A stretch of DNA of 64,000 nt from Deltaproteobacteria bacterium SG8_13. Lineage in GTDB: Bacteria; Desulfobacterota; Desulfobacteria; Desulfobacterales; SG8-13. Where the stretch lies: contig LJNK01000012.1 of assembly GCA_001303025.1 (NCBI GenBank), positions 1-64,000 of the forward strand, in the 5' to 3' direction. The translations under genes and the position numbers were made by a program. Position 1 is the stretch's first letter; every line of letters starts with the position of its first letter. A model generated the notes under the pieces. The model saw only the letters and a program-made list of their open reading frames with translations, was not told the origin of the DNA and did not search any database. This document shows positions 7,607 to 50,516 of this stretch, piece after piece.

Positions 7607-9673
7607 ATGAAACAAAAAAGAGACTCGATATTGCCCAGCACTTTGCTCGGGCCCCATGAAATGAATATCAACCCTTTCACGCTTTCATTTCCTGCCGATA
7701 TCGAGGCAATCTTCCGCCACGAATATTATAAATCGTCTTTGAGCCTTGTCAGAATATCCCTGATAGCCGGTATCGCATTGTACAGCCTGTTCGGAATTCT
7801 TGATGCGGAGCTTGTACCGGAAATGCGCAACAGCATTTGGCTGGTGCGCTTTGCATTGGTAGTGCCGTGTTTAACGGCAGTAATCATATATTCTTACTAT
7901 CCCGGTTTCGAAAGGTTTTTTCAGCCGTCGGTTTCCCTGGTCATGATCGTCGCAGGCCTCGGTATCAATATCATGATGGCGATCATCCCTTCCGAGATCG
8001 GCCATTCCTACTACGCCGGGCTCATACTGGTGTTCATATGGGGGTACTCCTTTACGAGGGTACGATTCGTGTGGGCCACGCCGGCAGGGTGGCTGATCGT
8101 TATATCTTATGAAATTATCGCGGCATACCTGAAAAACACGCCGCATCTAATTCTTCTGAGCAACAATTTTTTCTTTATCAGCGCCAACATGATCGGAATG
8201 TGTGTTTGTTACGCCATCGAATACTATGCCCGTTCCAATTTCTACATAGCGTACCTGTTGGATAAGGAGAGAGAAAAAATAAAATCGGCCAATCAGCGAT
8301 TAGAGCAGATCGTAGACAACCGAACTGCAGAACTTGTCAGCGTCAAAGATTTATTGGAGAAGGAACAGAAGAAGATTAAAGCGGTTAACCGCAAACTGGA
8401 GGATATGGTCGAAAAGCGCACGGCTCAGCTTGTCAAGGCAAACAAGGGGCTTAAAAAAGAGTTTGAGGAGCGTCAGCGGCTAGAGGAGAAGAGAAGGCAG
8501 TTGGAAATGCACCTGCAACGCGCCGAAAAACTGGAAGCCATCGGCACACTGGCGGGCGGCGTGGCCCATGATTTCAACAATCTTCTGATGGGAATTCAAG
8601 GCAGCATTTCAGTGGCTCGTGCCAAGCTCGGCAAAAAGCACCGTGCTCGCGGAAATCTGAAAGATGCGGAAGATTATATCAGCAAGAGTGCCAAACTTGC
8701 CGACCAGTTGTTGGGTTTTGCGAGGTGCGGCAAATATGAGCTGAGCATCACCGATTTAAACCAGCTGGTTGCACAAACTGTCGATCTGTTCAGCCGGACC
8801 AACAAGGGAATTACCGTAACTGCGGATTATTCAGAAGAACCCACCTTAACGGAAGTAGACCAGTCACAGATAGAGCAGGTGATATTGAACCTGCTTGTAA
8901 ACGCCGGTCATGCCATGCCGGACGGCGGAGACATCAGTATCCGCACCGAAATAATGTGGCTGGAGGGCAAAATTTTAGAACCGAACAACTTAGAACCGGG
9001 AGATTACATAATAACCGTCGTTGCGGATAGTGGAACCGGGATGGATCAAACCACCCTGGAGAAAGTGTTCGATCCGTTCTTTACCACAAAGCAAAGAGGC
9101 AGGGGGACGGGCCTGGGGTTGGCCTCCGCCTATGGAATCGTGAAAAACCATGGAGGCTTTTTCGAGGTGTCGAGTGAAGTCGGACGCGGGTCGACCTTCA
9201 TCTTTTACCTGCCTGCAACCACAAAGAGAAAATCGAGCCATCACAGTGCCGAGGAAGATTTTTTATACGGCAACGAACATATACTTCTCATAGACGATGA
9301 GGACATGATCCTGCAGGAGGTCGGTGAAATGCTCGATATGCTGGGCTACCAGGTCACAACTGCAAAAGGCGGCCGGAAAGCCGTGCAATTCTTCAAGGGA
9401 AGAGAAAGCTTGGTCGACCTGGTGATTCTGGATTTAATTATGCCCGATATGAACGGCGAGCAGACGTTCGACATGCTTCGAGTTCTCAACCCGCGTGTCA
9501 AGGTCCTTCTGGCAAGTGGCTACAGTATCAACGAAACCGCTAGAAGAATTCTCGAAAACGGCGGAGAAGGCTTCATAAAAAAACCGTTTGGTCTCAAGGA
9601 GCTGTCGCAGAAGGTCAGGACCATACTAGACCGCGAAACCAGTTCGACAATGAAAATTTCGCTCGCCAATTAA
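7607..9673 (+). CDS. Membrane hybrid histidine kinase (6-TM sensor, HisKA, HATPase, receiver)
   Basis: 688 aa from ATG 7607, with AAAGGA eight bases upstream. Six hydrophobic helices (about residues 47-210) form a sensor resembling the MASE-type module seen in some cyclases and kinases. It ends in NNFFFISANMIGM and is followed by a long coiled coil (about 215-305). The HisKA motif GGVAHDFNNLL places the phosphorylated His at 321. The ATPase has DSGTGM and GRGTGLGLASAYG boxes. A C-terminal receiver carries its acceptor Asp at 609 (VILDLIMPDMNG). The next gene, nine bases downstream, encodes a PhcB-like methyltransferase, so signal sensing linked to fatty-acid-ester synthesis is plausible. No DNA-binding output is present. 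Confidence 0.9.
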   Translation: MKQKRDSILPSTLLGPHEMNINPFTLSFPADIEAIFRHEYYKSSLSLVRISLIAGIALYSLFGILDAELVPEMRNSIWLVRFALVVPCLTAVIIYSYYPGFERFFQPSVSLVMIVAGLGINIMMAIIPSEIGHSYYAGLILVFIWGYSFTRVRFVWATPAGWLIVISYEIIAAYLKNTPHLILLSNNFFFISANMIGMCVCYAIEYYARSNFYIAYLLDKEREKIKSANQRLEQIVDNRTAELVSVKDLLEKEQKKIKAVNRKLEDMVEKRTAQLVKANKGLKKEFEERQRLEEKRRQLEMHLQRAEKLEAIGTLAGGVAHDFNNLLMGIQGSISVARAKLGKKHRARGNLKDAEDYISKSAKLADQLLGFARCGKYELSITDLNQLVAQTVDLFSRTNKGITVTADYSEEPTLTEVDQSQIEQVILNLLVNAGHAMPDGGDISIRTEIMWLEGKILEPNNLEPGDYIITVVADSGTGMDQTTLEKVFDPFFTTKQRGRGTGLGLASAYGIVKNHGGFFEVSSEVGRGSTFIFYLPATTKRKSSHHSAEEDFLYGNEHILLIDDEDMILQEVGEMLDMLGYQVTTAKGGRKAVQFFKGRESLVDLVILDLIMPDMNGEQTFDMLRVLNPRVKVLLASGYSINETARRILENGGEGFIKKPFGLKELSQKVRTILDRETSSTMKISLAN

Positions 9674-9681
9674 CCAAATGG

Positions 9682-10893
9682 GTGGTCGCCATGAAATCCG
9701 AAAACGCTGATGCGAGCTTTCAAATACAGTCCATCGACAGCCCGGCAGGGATCATCGAAAAAATGGATGCAACAATTAAAGGTGGGAACATGGACACGGC
9801 AATTCACAAGGAGTTCAGGGCTCTCTTTCATGAGCTTGAAATAAAACACCTGGACATCAGGAAAAGGCTAAACGCGATAACCATCGATGGAGAGGCTTTG
9901 GAAGAACGGTTAAAAAAGGAGATCGCCGATTTCGAAATCTGGCGCTTCCCGATCATGGATAGACTCGGTGAAATATCACAAAATTTCAGCGAGTTGGAAA
10001 AATCCAGGCATCAGGAGTATATACGAAAGTCGAAGTATTTCAAAATTATTCAAGAGGCGCCGTTTTACTGGAGAATCATTAACAAGCCAAACGGATATTC
10101 AGGCGATGCCGAAATGATGAGTTACATATACCGCGATTCATTTGAAGGAGATACGCCTTTCGGTAAATTTCTGCACAAACACGCCGTATCCACCAAAGCC
10201 TGTCAGGCGGTAAGAAACCGAAAAGAATATTTAACCGATCAAATCATGCAAAAAACCGGAAAATTTCTCAGCCTCGCCGCCGGGCCTTCCAAAGAAATAA
10301 TGGAAGTGATGGACACCACGAACAACGGGCGGCAGTTTCTGGCGCTGGACCACGATCTCGAAACATTGGTAAAGTATAGACCGCAGGAAAAAACGGATCA
10401 GTTTACGTATGCTCTGGCGAACGCATTTCAGTTCATTTCCGGCAACTATTTCGCAGCACGCCCGCGGGGTTTCTTTGAAAGATACTGCTCACCGAGAACC
10501 GACTTTACCGGACTGCATAAATTATTCAGCTTTATAAAGTACGAAATGATCGAGCTCAGTCAACAACGATTCGACATGATCTACAGCGCCGGCTTATATG
10601 ATTACATCAAGACGTTTCAGTTGGATGACAGCAAGGGCACCGTCGGTTTGACAAAAAGTTTGTTCGACCTGCTGCATCACGATGGCCTGCTGATTGTCGG
10701 CAACTTCAATAAAAACAATCCAAGGGATCTGGTGTTTGTGATGGAGTATGTCTATGACTGGCAGTTGATTTACAGGGATCGGGTGGATTTAAAAGAATTC
10801 GCGAGATCAATCGATGAGAAGGAGATCAAAAACATCGAAATCATAGAAGAACCTTTGGGCATTAATTATTTTCTGAAAATAGAAAAAGTCTGA
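9682..10893 (+). CDS. PhcB-type SAM-dependent methyltransferase (3-OH-PAME synthesis family)
   Basis: Up to 403 aa. Starts at GTG 9682 or ATG 9691 are possible, and ATG 9790 has the best ribosome site (AAAGGTGGGAAC). The core has the family's GYSGDAEMM motif, a divergent SAM loop LSLAAGPSKEI, an acidic LALDHD motif and DMIYSAGLYDYI. These traits fit the group annotated as 'extracellular factor 3-hydroxypalmitic acid methyl ester biosynthesis protein', of which Ralstonia PhcB makes a quorum signal. The N-terminal 100 residues are helical and charged. It is probably co-transcribed with the upstream hybrid kinase. Substrate and signal function are inference. Confidence 0.7.
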   Translation: MVAMKSENADASFQIQSIDSPAGIIEKMDATIKGGNMDTAIHKEFRALFHELEIKHLDIRKRLNAITIDGEALEERLKKEIADFEIWRFPIMDRLGEISQNFSELEKSRHQEYIRKSKYFKIIQEAPFYWRIINKPNGYSGDAEMMSYIYRDSFEGDTPFGKFLHKHAVSTKACQAVRNRKEYLTDQIMQKTGKFLSLAAGPSKEIMEVMDTTNNGRQFLALDHDLETLVKYRPQEKTDQFTYALANAFQFISGNYFAARPRGFFERYCSPRTDFTGLHKLFSFIKYEMIELSQQRFDMIYSAGLYDYIKTFQLDDSKGTVGLTKSLFDLLHHDGLLIVGNFNKNNPRDLVFVMEYVYDWQLIYRDRVDLKEFARSIDEKEIKNIEIIEEPLGINYFLKIEKV

Positions 10894-38687: not shown

Positions 38688-40457
38688 TTACAGGCCGGCT
38701 CGTGTTAACCGGCCGACGAGCTGCTCGAGATCTTGCGGATTTTTGTAGGGTTGACGACGTGCAAAGCGTTGAAGGTTGAAATCCGGCCTGGCTCGCCGGA
38801 TGTTCTCCACCGCCGCCCGGGCCTCGGCACTGCGATCCATCGCGGCGTTGGCGGCTGCACTGACGACCAGTGCGTCGATATTCCCGGGATCGACCTGCAG
38901 GGCGACATCGGCCGCCGCAACGGCTTCTTCGAACATGCCGGAGCCGTAATAGGATACCGCCAGCACCGCCGGGTAGTAGGAAGGAAAGACCGGTGATAGC
39001 CGCATGGCGAACCGGGCCAGATCGATGGCTTGCTCAGGCCGGCCCACGTAGTTGAGAATATTGGCTTTGAGGGCGTAGGAGGCATCGCAGCTGGGTCGCG
39101 CCAGGACCGCTTTTTCGGAAGCAACCAGGGCTTTGTCGTGTTCTTTGTTATGCAGGTGGATCTGGGCCATCACCATCTCCGGCATCCCGGTGATGTCTTT
39201 CATTTGCAGCGCCTGGTCGGCGAGTTGAGTTGCCCGCTGCCGAACGTGGGGTTCAACCTTCCCTTCCTTTTGTATCAGTTCGAACCAGTAAGCCCAGGCG
39301 GCCAGCGCGTATCCCAGGGAGGAGTCCGGTTCCAGGCGGATCGTCTCTTCGAACATGCTTTGTGCCACGTGAAGGGCATTGGGAGAAGAACTGAAAAGCG
39401 CCCCCCATCCCTTGTAGTAGGATTCGACCGCCAAAGGGTTGTGAAGGGCCTGCCGAATGGTCAGGGCCTGCTGGCCGCTGACAAGCTCGACGTCCATGGC
39501 CGTAACGATCTCGTTGGTGATTTCATCCTGGACCGCGAACATGTCGCCGAGTTTGCGGTCGAAGCGCCGAACCCAGAGCTGCCGGCTGTCGGCGGTCTCG
39601 GTCAAACGGGCGGTGATGCGGATCCGATCTCCAGATCGACGCACACCGCCGTCGAGCACGTAGCCGACACCCAGCTTGCGACCGATCTCCCGGATGGAGT
39701 AAAGGCTCGATTTGTAATCGAAGCTCGTTATGTCGCTGATCAGCAGTAAGCCGGGAATCTGCACCAGTGCCGCGATAATGTCCAGGGTCAGACCGCGGGT
39801 AAAATCGTCCTGCTCGTAGCCGGCACTCAGATTGACAAGCGGCAGCACCGCCAGGGATGGTTTGGCGGGCAGCGGCAAGGCGGGCTGCACGGTATCCGAC
39901 CTGGCCACTGCAGCTTTTTGCGAGGCCTCGGCGGTCGGATCGATCCGAAACACCCGAACCGGATCGGGGATGTTTTTGAGGTGCTGCTCGCCGAGATCGG
40001 AAATACCGATATGGATTTTGCCGTGAATCTGCCGGTACACCAGGTCGGAGATGCAGGTGCTGCCGGGATCGGCCAGGGCCTGGATGCGGGCGGCGATGTT
40101 GACCCCGTCTCCGTAAAGCCTTTCACCGTCGGTCATTACGTCCCCCAGGTGAATGCCGATCCGAAATCGGAGATGACGGTCCTCGGACAGGTTGGTGTTG
40201 AGCTCCGCTAAGGACTGATGGATGATTTCCGCGCACCGGACCGCATCCAGGGTGTTGGGGAATTCGGCCAGCAGGTTGTCGCCCACAAAATCGACCAGGC
40301 GCCCTCCTTTTTCGCCGATGACCGCGGCGATTCGCTGGCGGCAGGCGGTCAGGGCCCGGACGGTGGCGACCTCGTCATCGGCCATCAGGCGGCTGTAGCC
40401 GACCACATCGGCGTTGATCAGCGCGGAAAGTCTGCGCTGGAGAAGGTGCTCGGCCAT
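38688..40457 (-). CDS. Class III adenylate/guanylate cyclase with TPR domain
   Basis: 589 aa. Residues 1 to about 175 form a class III cyclase: NADVVGYSRLMADDE (first metal Asp), DFVGDNLLAEF (second), RIGIHLGDVMTDGERLYGDGVNIAARIQ. Next comes a FlgO/TolB-like segment (PSLAVLPLVNLSAGYEQDDFTRGL...DSRQLWVRRFDR), then several TPRs to the C-terminus. It should make cAMP in the cytoplasm. It is divergent from the sigma-54 activator gene. The cyclic-nucleotide domain on the SulP protein at 48318 is a possible local reader. Substrate choice (ATP or GTP) is not provable here. Confidence 0.9.
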   Translation of the reverse strand: MAEHLLQRRLSALINADVVGYSRLMADDEVATVRALTACRQRIAAVIGEKGGRLVDFVGDNLLAEFPNTLDAVRCAEIIHQSLAELNTNLSEDRHLRFRIGIHLGDVMTDGERLYGDGVNIAARIQALADPGSTCISDLVYRQIHGKIHIGISDLGEQHLKNIPDPVRVFRIDPTAEASQKAAVARSDTVQPALPLPAKPSLAVLPLVNLSAGYEQDDFTRGLTLDIIAALVQIPGLLLISDITSFDYKSSLYSIREIGRKLGVGYVLDGGVRRSGDRIRITARLTETADSRQLWVRRFDRKLGDMFAVQDEITNEIVTAMDVELVSGQQALTIRQALHNPLAVESYYKGWGALFSSSPNALHVAQSMFEETIRLEPDSSLGYALAAWAYWFELIQKEGKVEPHVRQRATQLADQALQMKDITGMPEMVMAQIHLHNKEHDKALVASEKAVLARPSCDASYALKANILNYVGRPEQAIDLARFAMRLSPVFPSYYPAVLAVSYYGSGMFEEAVAAADVALQVDPGNIDALVVSAAANAAMDRSAEARAAVENIRRARPDFNLQRFARRQPYKNPQDLEQLVGRLTRAGL

Positions 40458-48253: not shown

Positions 48254-48317
48254 GGTGCGTAGATCCAGAACATGCGTGACGAATCCGCTGTCTAACCCGG
48301 ATAGAAAACGAATCGCC

Positions 48318-50516
48318 ATGGAAGACGCACGCTCTCAAAACCTCTTCTCCTCCTTGCTTGCCGCTTTGGTCATCGGATTGATCAACATTATCTACACCGT
48401 TTCTTTTTCCGCCCTGATTTTCAACGGCCCGTTGACCGCCTACTATAAACTCGGCATATCCACCATCTTGTTTTCCTACGCCATCTCCAGCATCGTGATG
48501 GCCGCCGGCAGCTCGCTTCCGGGTCTCATCGTCACGCCAAAAGGTGTCATCACCGCCATCGTCAGCATTATCTCCGTTTCACTGATCCACTCCGGTTTGC
48601 CTGCTGCAGGCGCAGATACGGTTGTGGCCAGCTTGTTCACCTGCCTGCTGATCAGCGCGTTTTTAACGGGCCTGTTCTTTTTTCTTCTGGGGCTGTTTAG
48701 GGGCGGCAACCTCATCCGCTTTATTCCCTTCCCGGTTCTCAGCGGGTATTTCGGCGGTGTGGGCGTCATCCTGATCAGCGGTTCGATCTACATCATGACC
48801 GGGCATACGCTCACCTGGCCGGATCTGCCGCGCCTGGTCGACAGCGAAATGCTTTACTTGTGGGTACCGGGATTGCTCTTTGCCGTGGTTTGTCTGGCAG
48901 CCGCCAAACGATATTCGCACTTTCTCACCATGCCGCTGCTGATCGCTATCGGCGTGCTGCTGTTTTTTACCCTGTCCGCATCGATGGGCGTGTCGGTTGA
49001 CGATCTGAGAATCAGAGGATATCTGATGCCGGCAATGGACACCGGCATCACCTGGCCGCAGCTGTTTCCCGAGTTCATCACGCGGGCAAGCTGGCTTGCG
49101 GTGTCGGACCAGTGGGGCCACATCCTGTCCATCGTGCTGATCAGCAGCATATCGGTGCTTCTCTACATCAGTATCACGGAGGTCGCCACCGGCCGGGAGA
49201 TCGATCTCGGGCGGGACTTGAAGGCGGTCGGACTGGCCGGCATGGCCAGTTCGGCGATCGGCGGCTTCATCAGTTTTCACGAGCCGGTGGACACTAAACT
49301 GTCCTATCGTCTCGGCGGCACAAACCGTCTGGTCGGGGTTTTTTTCGGCGCCGTGTGCCTGTTGTTCGTTTTCGGCGGCAGCCATGTTATCGGCTATTTC
49401 CCCAAACCGATCATGGGCGGGTTGGTGCTGTTTGTCGGTGTCGACCTGTTTGCGGAAAACCTTTCCAAGAGTTGGCGGCAACTGCCGAAGTCAGAGTTCG
49501 CACTGGTTCTCATCATTGTTCTGTCGATCACCCTGCTCGGTTTCCTGGAGGGCATCGGCGTTGGGATCCTGGTCGCCACGGTTCTGTTTGTCGTAAACTA
49601 CAGCCGGATCGACGTGGTAAAAAATCAGCTATCCGGCGACATCTACCACAGCAAGGTGGAGCGTCCGCAGGCAGAGCGCCGGCTGCTGAAACAACACGGG
49701 CAGCAGCTGCGAATCTTTATCCTCCAGGGGTATATCTTTTTCGGCACTGCAGAGCGTTTGCTGGGCACCATCCGCCGTTCGCTGCGCAACCCATCGGGTC
49801 AACCGGAGAATCGGGTGACAACCATCGTCCTCGATTTTCGGGGTGTACTGAACATCGACTCCTCGGCATTGAATGCCTTCTCGAAACTTCGAACAACCGC
49901 CGATAAAGAACAGATCACGCTGATCCTAACGAACCTGAATGCTTCCATAGATTCTCATTTCAAAAGCGTCCGGTTTTTCGACGGCGAGCGTACGTTGCAT
50001 TTTGCCCATCTCGATTACGCCCTGGAGTGGTGCGAAGAGAAGTTTCTCAAAGCAACCGCTGCGGAATATCGGCGCCCGGATGACATCGATTCACGACTGG
50101 AAGAAATTTTGCAGTACCCGAACCTGGTCGCCCATTTTAAAATGTACCTCGAGCGCATCGAGCTGAAAGCCGGCGACGTGGTATTTCGTATGGGAGATCC
50201 GTCCAATTGTTTGTATGTGATCGAATCCGGCCGGATATCGACCCTGCTGCCGGGGGCCAACGGGGACCACCTGAGGCTGAGAACCATGGGGGCCGGCACG
50301 CTGGTCGGTGAAATCGGCCTGTACACCGGCAAACCGCGCTCAGCCGATGCAGTTGCCGACAGCCCGTCGACCCTCCATGCACTCTCTTATGAACGGTTCA
50401 AGCAGTTGGAACGCGAGCATCCAGGTGTCGCCCGTCAGTTTCACAAACACGTGGTCCTATCCATCTCCCAGCGCATGGCGCTCGACAGCGAGGCGATGCG
50501 GGCACTGGCGCCATAG
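48318..50516 (+). CDS. SulP-type anion transporter with STAS and cyclic-nucleotide-binding domains
   Basis: 732 aa from ATG 48318 (upstream codons lack similarity). About 11-12 TM helices form the SulP core (residues 10-420). A STAS domain follows (about 430-560: TTIVLDFRGVLNIDSSALNAF). The C-terminal cNMP_binding domain (about 600-715) has AGDVVFRMGDPSNCLYVIESGRISTLL and LVGEIGLYTGKPRSADAVAD, the phosphate-binding cassette. SulP proteins carry sulfate, bicarbonate or other anions. cAMP or cGMP might gate it directly. The nearest cyclase is encoded at 38688. Transported ion unknown. Confidence 0.9.
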   Translation: MEDARSQNLFSSLLAALVIGLINIIYTVSFSALIFNGPLTAYYKLGISTILFSYAISSIVMAAGSSLPGLIVTPKGVITAIVSIISVSLIHSGLPAAGADTVVASLFTCLLISAFLTGLFFFLLGLFRGGNLIRFIPFPVLSGYFGGVGVILISGSIYIMTGHTLTWPDLPRLVDSEMLYLWVPGLLFAVVCLAAAKRYSHFLTMPLLIAIGVLLFFTLSASMGVSVDDLRIRGYLMPAMDTGITWPQLFPEFITRASWLAVSDQWGHILSIVLISSISVLLYISITEVATGREIDLGRDLKAVGLAGMASSAIGGFISFHEPVDTKLSYRLGGTNRLVGVFFGAVCLLFVFGGSHVIGYFPKPIMGGLVLFVGVDLFAENLSKSWRQLPKSEFALVLIIVLSITLLGFLEGIGVGILVATVLFVVNYSRIDVVKNQLSGDIYHSKVERPQAERRLLKQHGQQLRIFILQGYIFFGTAERLLGTIRRSLRNPSGQPENRVTTIVLDFRGVLNIDSSALNAFSKLRTTADKEQITLILTNLNASIDSHFKSVRFFDGERTLHFAHLDYALEWCEEKFLKATAAEYRRPDDIDSRLEEILQYPNLVAHFKMYLERIELKAGDVVFRMGDPSNCLYVIESGRISTLLPGANGDHLRLRTMGAGTLVGEIGLYTGKPRSADAVADSPSTLHALSYERFKQLEREHPGVARQFHKHVVLSISQRMALDSEAMRALAP

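Follow-up and report, generated by a model that had tools for sequence, protein, structure and literature searches.

The closest described relatives of the locus considered here belong to the Phc system of Ralstonia and Cupriavidus (genes phcBSRQ and phcA), in which the methyltransferase PhcB makes 3-hydroxymyristic or 3-hydroxypalmitic acid methyl ester (3-OH MAME/PAME) and PhcS senses the product (PMC8578825, PMC11960443); the phc cluster has been reported as restricted to Betaproteobacteria (PMC10653808). A lipophilic autoinducer and a histidine kinase with six transmembrane segments (six-TM), encoded together with the synthase, also characterise the alpha-hydroxyketone systems LqsA/LqsS and CqsA/CqsS (PMC4821796, PMC10653808), whose sensors have lipophilic ligands (PMC4821796), but there the synthase is a pyridoxal phosphate enzyme and not an S-adenosylmethionine (SAM) methyltransferase. 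The present analysis concerns two adjoining genes on the forward strand of the first 64,000 nucleotides of contig LJNK01000012.1 of Deltaproteobacteria bacterium SG8_13, a stretch referred to below as the window. The first gene (7607..9673) encodes a hybrid sensor histidine kinase with a fused receiver, 688 aa long, and the second (9790..10893) a PhcB-type class I SAM-dependent methyltransferase, probably of 367 aa. The two are read here, with a probability of about one half, as synthase and receptor of a methyl ester of a fatty acid or of some comparable lipophilic ester, which would make them a divergent variant of the Phc kind.

Profile comparisons clearly indicate the relationship of the methyltransferase to PhcB. 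Searches with the single sequence found no NCBIfam match and no PDB match, and profile searches were therefore used; Pfam returned Methyltransf_20 alone, below its threshold. The profile of the kinase-linked subfamily matched PhcB of Paraburkholderia, Cupriavidus and Janthinobacterium (HHalign 99.8%, E-value 4e-28, about 270 columns), the Cupriavidus orthologs standing in for PhcB of Ralstonia solanacearum; Cupriavidus Phc products have been reported as 56–75% identical to their Ralstonia counterparts (PMC2842291). Hidden Markov models (HMMs) built from sequences of the window's own order, Desulfobacterales, with no betaproteobacterial sequence among them, recognised PhcB at 81 of 81 loci (E-values 3e-68 to 7e-42). 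The superfamily alignment (A1) was too diverse for scanning contigs, so a two-row alignment (A5) was used, which yielded 80 loci, all betaproteobacterial and mostly from Paraburkholderia, Cupriavidus and Janthinobacterium. The betaproteobacterial loci show phcBSRQ-type operons with the order methyltransferase–kinase–receiver, and a P. graminis plasmid has the same order.

The motifs from which the first-pass annotation had recognised the PhcB family, KPNGYSGDAEMM and FDMIYSAGLYDYI, proved to be the most conserved positions across the whole PhcB-type superfamily. The signature KPNGYSGDAEMM(S) (10084..10122, forward strand, as are all features below) is near-invariant in 27 diverse homologs, the window protein retains all core positions conserved in them, and the Y, G, D and Y of the post-SAM motif DMIYSAGLYDYI (10573..10608) are invariant or near-invariant. 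Foldseek searches with the predicted structure gave 545 matches at E ≤ 1e-3, the best of them class I methyltransferases, including several O-methyltransferases; the Rossmann-type SAM fold with motif I that defines class I is present, and a placement in another family, looked for as a point that could tell against the assignment, did not emerge. The models of this protein and of the six-TM domain, built from window and betaproteobacterial rows, have moderate predicted local distance difference test scores (pLDDT 64 and 75, respectively) and are thus taken to support only the fold class. The protein also carries an insertion (10441..10506; ...R-[FY]-C-[SY]-P-R-x-D-F), possibly a substrate lid, which appears in all three subfamily rows of alignment A1 and in none of the 14 others, and which the model renders as a low-confidence loop.

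The longest open reading frame (ORF) of the methyltransferase begins at GTG 9682, eight nucleotides past the kinase stop codon, and the spacing of nine bases given in the first-pass annotation is an artefact of this start codon. In homologs the first residue is the one that aligns with ATG 9790, just upstream of which lies the Shine-Dalgarno-like AAAGGTGGG (9778..9786), so the true start is probably ATG 9790 and the gap between the genes is likely about 116 bp. No terminator-like site was found between the two genes, which makes their co-transcription likely.

ATG 7607 is taken as the start of the kinase because the N-terminus through ILPxTxxGPHEM is conserved in homologs; its orthologs in seven other genomes are 46–53% identical to it along the full length. 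Matches to HATPase_c (1.5e-21; residues 418–538, 8858..9220) and Response_reg (4e-22; residues 559–671, 9281..9619) lie far above the Pfam cut-offs, and HisKA falls just below its threshold with the His motif intact. The predicted phospho-acceptor His321 (8567..8569) stands in GGVAHDFNN, and the receiver contains Asp609 (9431–9433) and Lys659, in agreement with the positions H321 and D609 proposed earlier; the protein thus has the HisKA/HATPase core and C-terminal receiver of a hybrid histidine kinase. The earlier description of its sensory domain (7661..8260) as six-TM is likewise upheld by comparison with homologs and by the AlphaFold2 prediction, which shows about six helices in the membrane and a coiled coil at the exit; a simple hydropathy count gave five helices only.

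The six-TM domain is homologous to the membrane domain of PhcS. Since the six-TM profile (A3) includes one PhcS row, the independent test is an HMM free of betaproteobacterial sequences, and this matched PhcS at 81 of 81 loci (median E-value 3e-15, worst 2e-4). A3 itself found exactly one match, PhcS, in each of five whole betaproteobacterial genomes of 3–10 Mb (C. necator, C. pinatubonensis, a Ralstonia-labelled strain, Nitrotoga and P. xenovorans). When A3 was searched against the PDB (177,635 sequences), two matches only were obtained, the membrane adenylyl cyclase AC5 (E-value 3.5e-7) and the Pseudomonas diguanylate cyclase ImcA (PDB code 8wcn, E-value 0.0014). Foldseek ranked the membrane domain of ImcA first and placed those of AC9 and AC5 among the best (TM-score 0.49–0.57, with 0.57 for AC9), all with weak E-values, the matches to AC9 and AC5 having high probability but E-values near 1; AC_N was matched weakly by two of 23 six-TM members. 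A mostly-PhcS profile (A7) gave no meaningful match in the PDB, which leaves A3, weighted to sequences of the order, as the source of the adenylyl cyclase link. By sequence and predicted fold, the domain thus appears related to the membrane domain of class III adenylyl cyclases, and those of the mammalian enzymes and of Rv1625c have been reported as fatty-acid receptors (PMC11606603, PMC12505454). A fusion of CqsS to the catalytic domain of the Rv1625c cyclase has also been reported (PMC4821796). The known proteins differ from the window kinase in their outputs, which are cyclase domains or, in ImcA, c-di-GMP synthesis; the cyclases have free fatty acids or anandamide as ligands, and a linked synthase has not been reported for them.

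Scans of the order revealed eight further methyltransferases of the subfamily (45–62% identity) in four other families, and in seven of the eight genomes the gene lies directly downstream of the orthologous kinase gene (eight of nine counting the window), as judged from crude longest-ORF gene calls in the relatives. Absence of conserved linkage in relatives had been named beforehand as a finding that would count against the pair, and the linkage is present. The window genome (3.8 Mb) carries dsrA well above the curated cut-off and so belongs to an organism with dissimilatory sulfite reductase, probably one of the Desulfobacterota. According to the profiles, its only PhcB-type methyltransferase gene and its only six-TM gene are the two in the window. 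The pairing of kinase and methyltransferase is well supported. In a 72% complete genome of the same genus neither gene was found, and joint loss there is unproven.

Both domain profiles were applied to one set of 291 genomes from the order, a co-occurrence search that the first-pass annotation had suggested. Candidates in some genomes outnumbered those scored, so the domain counts are lower bounds: at least 52 PhcB-type methyltransferases in 38 genomes and at least 143 six-TM domains in 82, with 38 of the 52 methyltransferases within 4 kb of a six-TM gene. Both domains occur in 36 genomes, the methyltransferase alone in two (65% and 78% complete), the six-TM domain alone in 46 and neither in 207. 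The association is strong by genome (Fisher p 8e-21) and by genus (six-TM in 24/24 methyltransferase genera and 24/114 others, p 7e-14), in tests that take genomes or genera as independent and do not fully correct for phylogeny.

The proteins that carry the six-TM domain vary in output and include kinase–receiver hybrids, kinases, PAS-kinase-receiver(-Hpt) proteins and SpoIIE phosphatases, the last encoded in operons that also contain genes for a HATPase protein and for one of the SiaC family. The methyltransferases stand alone or are fused to N-terminal domains, among them cyclic-nucleotide-binding ones. At seven loci (L054, L056, L057, L059, L060, L061 and L171), genes for a HATPase protein, for a SiaC-family protein, for an N-terminally extended methyltransferase and for a SpoIIE phosphatase with the six-TM domain form an operon, and a six-TM kinase gene often comes next; the combination reads as a partner switch of Sia type joined to a PhcB-type methyltransferase. 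Outside the order, a methyltransferase adjoins a six-TM kinase in Pseudanabaena, and in loci of alphaproteobacterial type, from Rhizobium and similar bacteria (L030, L072, L192, L194 and L196–L198), it is divergent from a multi-TM GGDEF-EAL protein; weak six-TM matches (E-values 2e-5 to 2e-8) were obtained at L192, L194 and L196–L198. Among 14 further Pseudomonadota genomes with the methyltransferase, seven have a six-TM match at 1e-4, beside the methyltransferase in four, so the pairing rule is not universal. In an Enterobacter ludwigii plasmid (L071:3736-6873), a type I polyketide synthase carries at its C-terminus a PhcB-type methyltransferase domain, which may release a methyl ester, and a Deinococcus plasmid (L070:3401-6759) carries a PhcB-type methyltransferase in a gene run with a fatty acid desaturase. 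No earlier description of the methyltransferase/six-TM pairing was found in the literature searched, which did not take in most subscription papers.

The locus resembles the Phc system in its homologous methyltransferase with all superfamily signature residues, in the adjoining kinase gene with a homologous six-TM domain, and in a receiver without DNA-binding output, a trait that PhcR and PhcQ are reported to share. There are also differences. The kinase gene comes first, with the receiver fused to its product, followed by the methyltransferase gene and that of an FKBP-type isomerase, an order unlike phcBSRQ; no PhcR or PhcQ was found at the window locus. The methyltransferase, of about 367 aa, has no N-terminal domain of the kind found in PhcB orthologs (462–473 aa) and has the insertion of its own. 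The Phc-like pair proposed in the first-pass annotation therefore stands as to PhcB homology, a membrane domain of PhcS type and linkage, and falls as to membership in Phc, under which the pair cannot be filed on grounds of clade, architecture and gene content; its suggestion of a divergent signalling system in another lineage is supported. The methyltransferase nearest to PhcB in the order is encoded in another genome, G101 (L063:2-3388), is 41% identical to the P. graminis protein and lies in a cluster with the order methyltransferase–radical SAM protein–six-TM kinase.

In the synthase–receptor reading, the methyltransferase would use SAM to methylate the carboxylate of some lipophilic acid, of which a fatty acid or a 3-hydroxy fatty acid is the likeliest. 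The product would be a membrane-permeant ester, which may bind the six-TM domain of the adjoining kinase and alter its autophosphorylation at H321; the phosphate would pass to D609 of the fused receiver and from there to an unlinked partner. Such an ester might also act between cells. The arrangement would be a variant of PhcB/PhcS, where a PhcB-type methyltransferase is combined with a six-TM receptor bearing an exchangeable output domain.

Several observations weigh against this interpretation, in addition to the incomplete correction for phylogeny. A maximum-likelihood tree places the kinase-linked subfamily in a clade of its own (support 100/100) apart from the PhcB clade, so that the methyltransferase and PhcB are homologs without being orthologs. 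Direct comparison of the subfamily's six-TM domain with PhcS is weak (probability 32%, score 31, collinear over 154 columns; 15 polytopic controls scored at most 18), and the homology therefore runs through intermediates. The receiver of the kinase has no known target. One subfamily methyltransferase (45% identity), in genome G756, is unlinked, with one six-TM kinase (34% identical) elsewhere in that genome, and 97 of the 143 six-TM genes have no PhcB-type methyltransferase nearby, which suggests that the six-TM domain may sense several ligands. The subfamily-specific insertion, finally, leaves room for a substrate different from that of PhcB.

That last point leads to the best surviving alternative, a synthase–receptor pair whose substrate is some other carboxylic or hydroxy acid. 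Divergence of the subfamily from PhcB and the insertion favour it, as do the homologs in the polyketide synthase fusion and beside the desaturase, and substrate specificity is not readable from the methyltransferase sequence. It is nevertheless unlikely, given that characterised or related members of the shared receptor family, PhcS and the adenylyl cyclase membrane domains, respond to lipophilic ligands (PMC11960443, PMC11606603). Lower still stands a CheR-like role, in which the methyltransferase would make no signal but would tune the sensor by methylating protein carboxyl groups, either on the kinase or on a different protein. The best solved sequence match to the methyltransferase profile is indeed CheR (PDB code 5ftw, E-value 4e-7), weak Pfam CheR matches occur in eight of 27 members, and the gene adjoins that of a membrane sensor, as in chemotaxis-like adaptation. 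The CheR matches, however, cover only the SAM-binding core common to many class I methyltransferases, whereas PhcB, the closest characterised homolog, acts on a fatty acid (PMC8578825) and one member is fused to a polyketide synthase; the outputs adjacent to the methyltransferases vary widely (kinase, SpoIIE phosphatase, GGDEF-EAL), and neither a shared methyl-acceptor region nor a methylesterase was seen among them. It is similarly improbable that the two genes are merely co-transcribed, the kinase sensing something unrelated and the methyltransferase being independently metabolic: the many six-TM genes without a methyltransferase neighbour and the unlinked gene of G756 would fit this, but adjacency of the two domain families recurs in many architectures and several phyla, and their co-occurrence in genomes is nearly complete. 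Random adjacency is rejected by the order-wide counts.

Two other genes of the window were read by eye from their translations. The product of 38688-40457 looks like a soluble protein with a class III adenylate cyclase domain and TPR-type repeats, and that of 48255-50516 like a SulP-type transporter, apparently fused to STAS and cyclic-nucleotide-binding domains.

Fatty-acid-ester signalling has so far been described for Ralstonia and close relatives. A pair of this kind in bacteria of sulfate-reducer type, together with the recurrent link between the methyltransferase and the six-TM domain, would extend it to other phyla, and lipid signalling of the Phc kind may reach far beyond the few bacteria, plant pathogens among them, in which it is known. 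With a probability somewhat below one half, PhcB-type methyltransferases and adenylyl-cyclase-type six-TM domains may constitute a general, widespread class of lipid-ester synthases and receptors whose outputs can be swapped for one another (kinases, hybrid or not, c-di-GMP enzymes, and SpoIIE phosphatases acting with partner switches of the SiaC type), of which the Ralstonia Phc system would be one betaproteobacterial case. If so, a family of membrane domains with largely unknown ligands would have dedicated ligands made next door, and the long-standing question of what the six-TM cyclase-type membrane domains bind would become testable, the candidate being the product of the adjoining enzyme.

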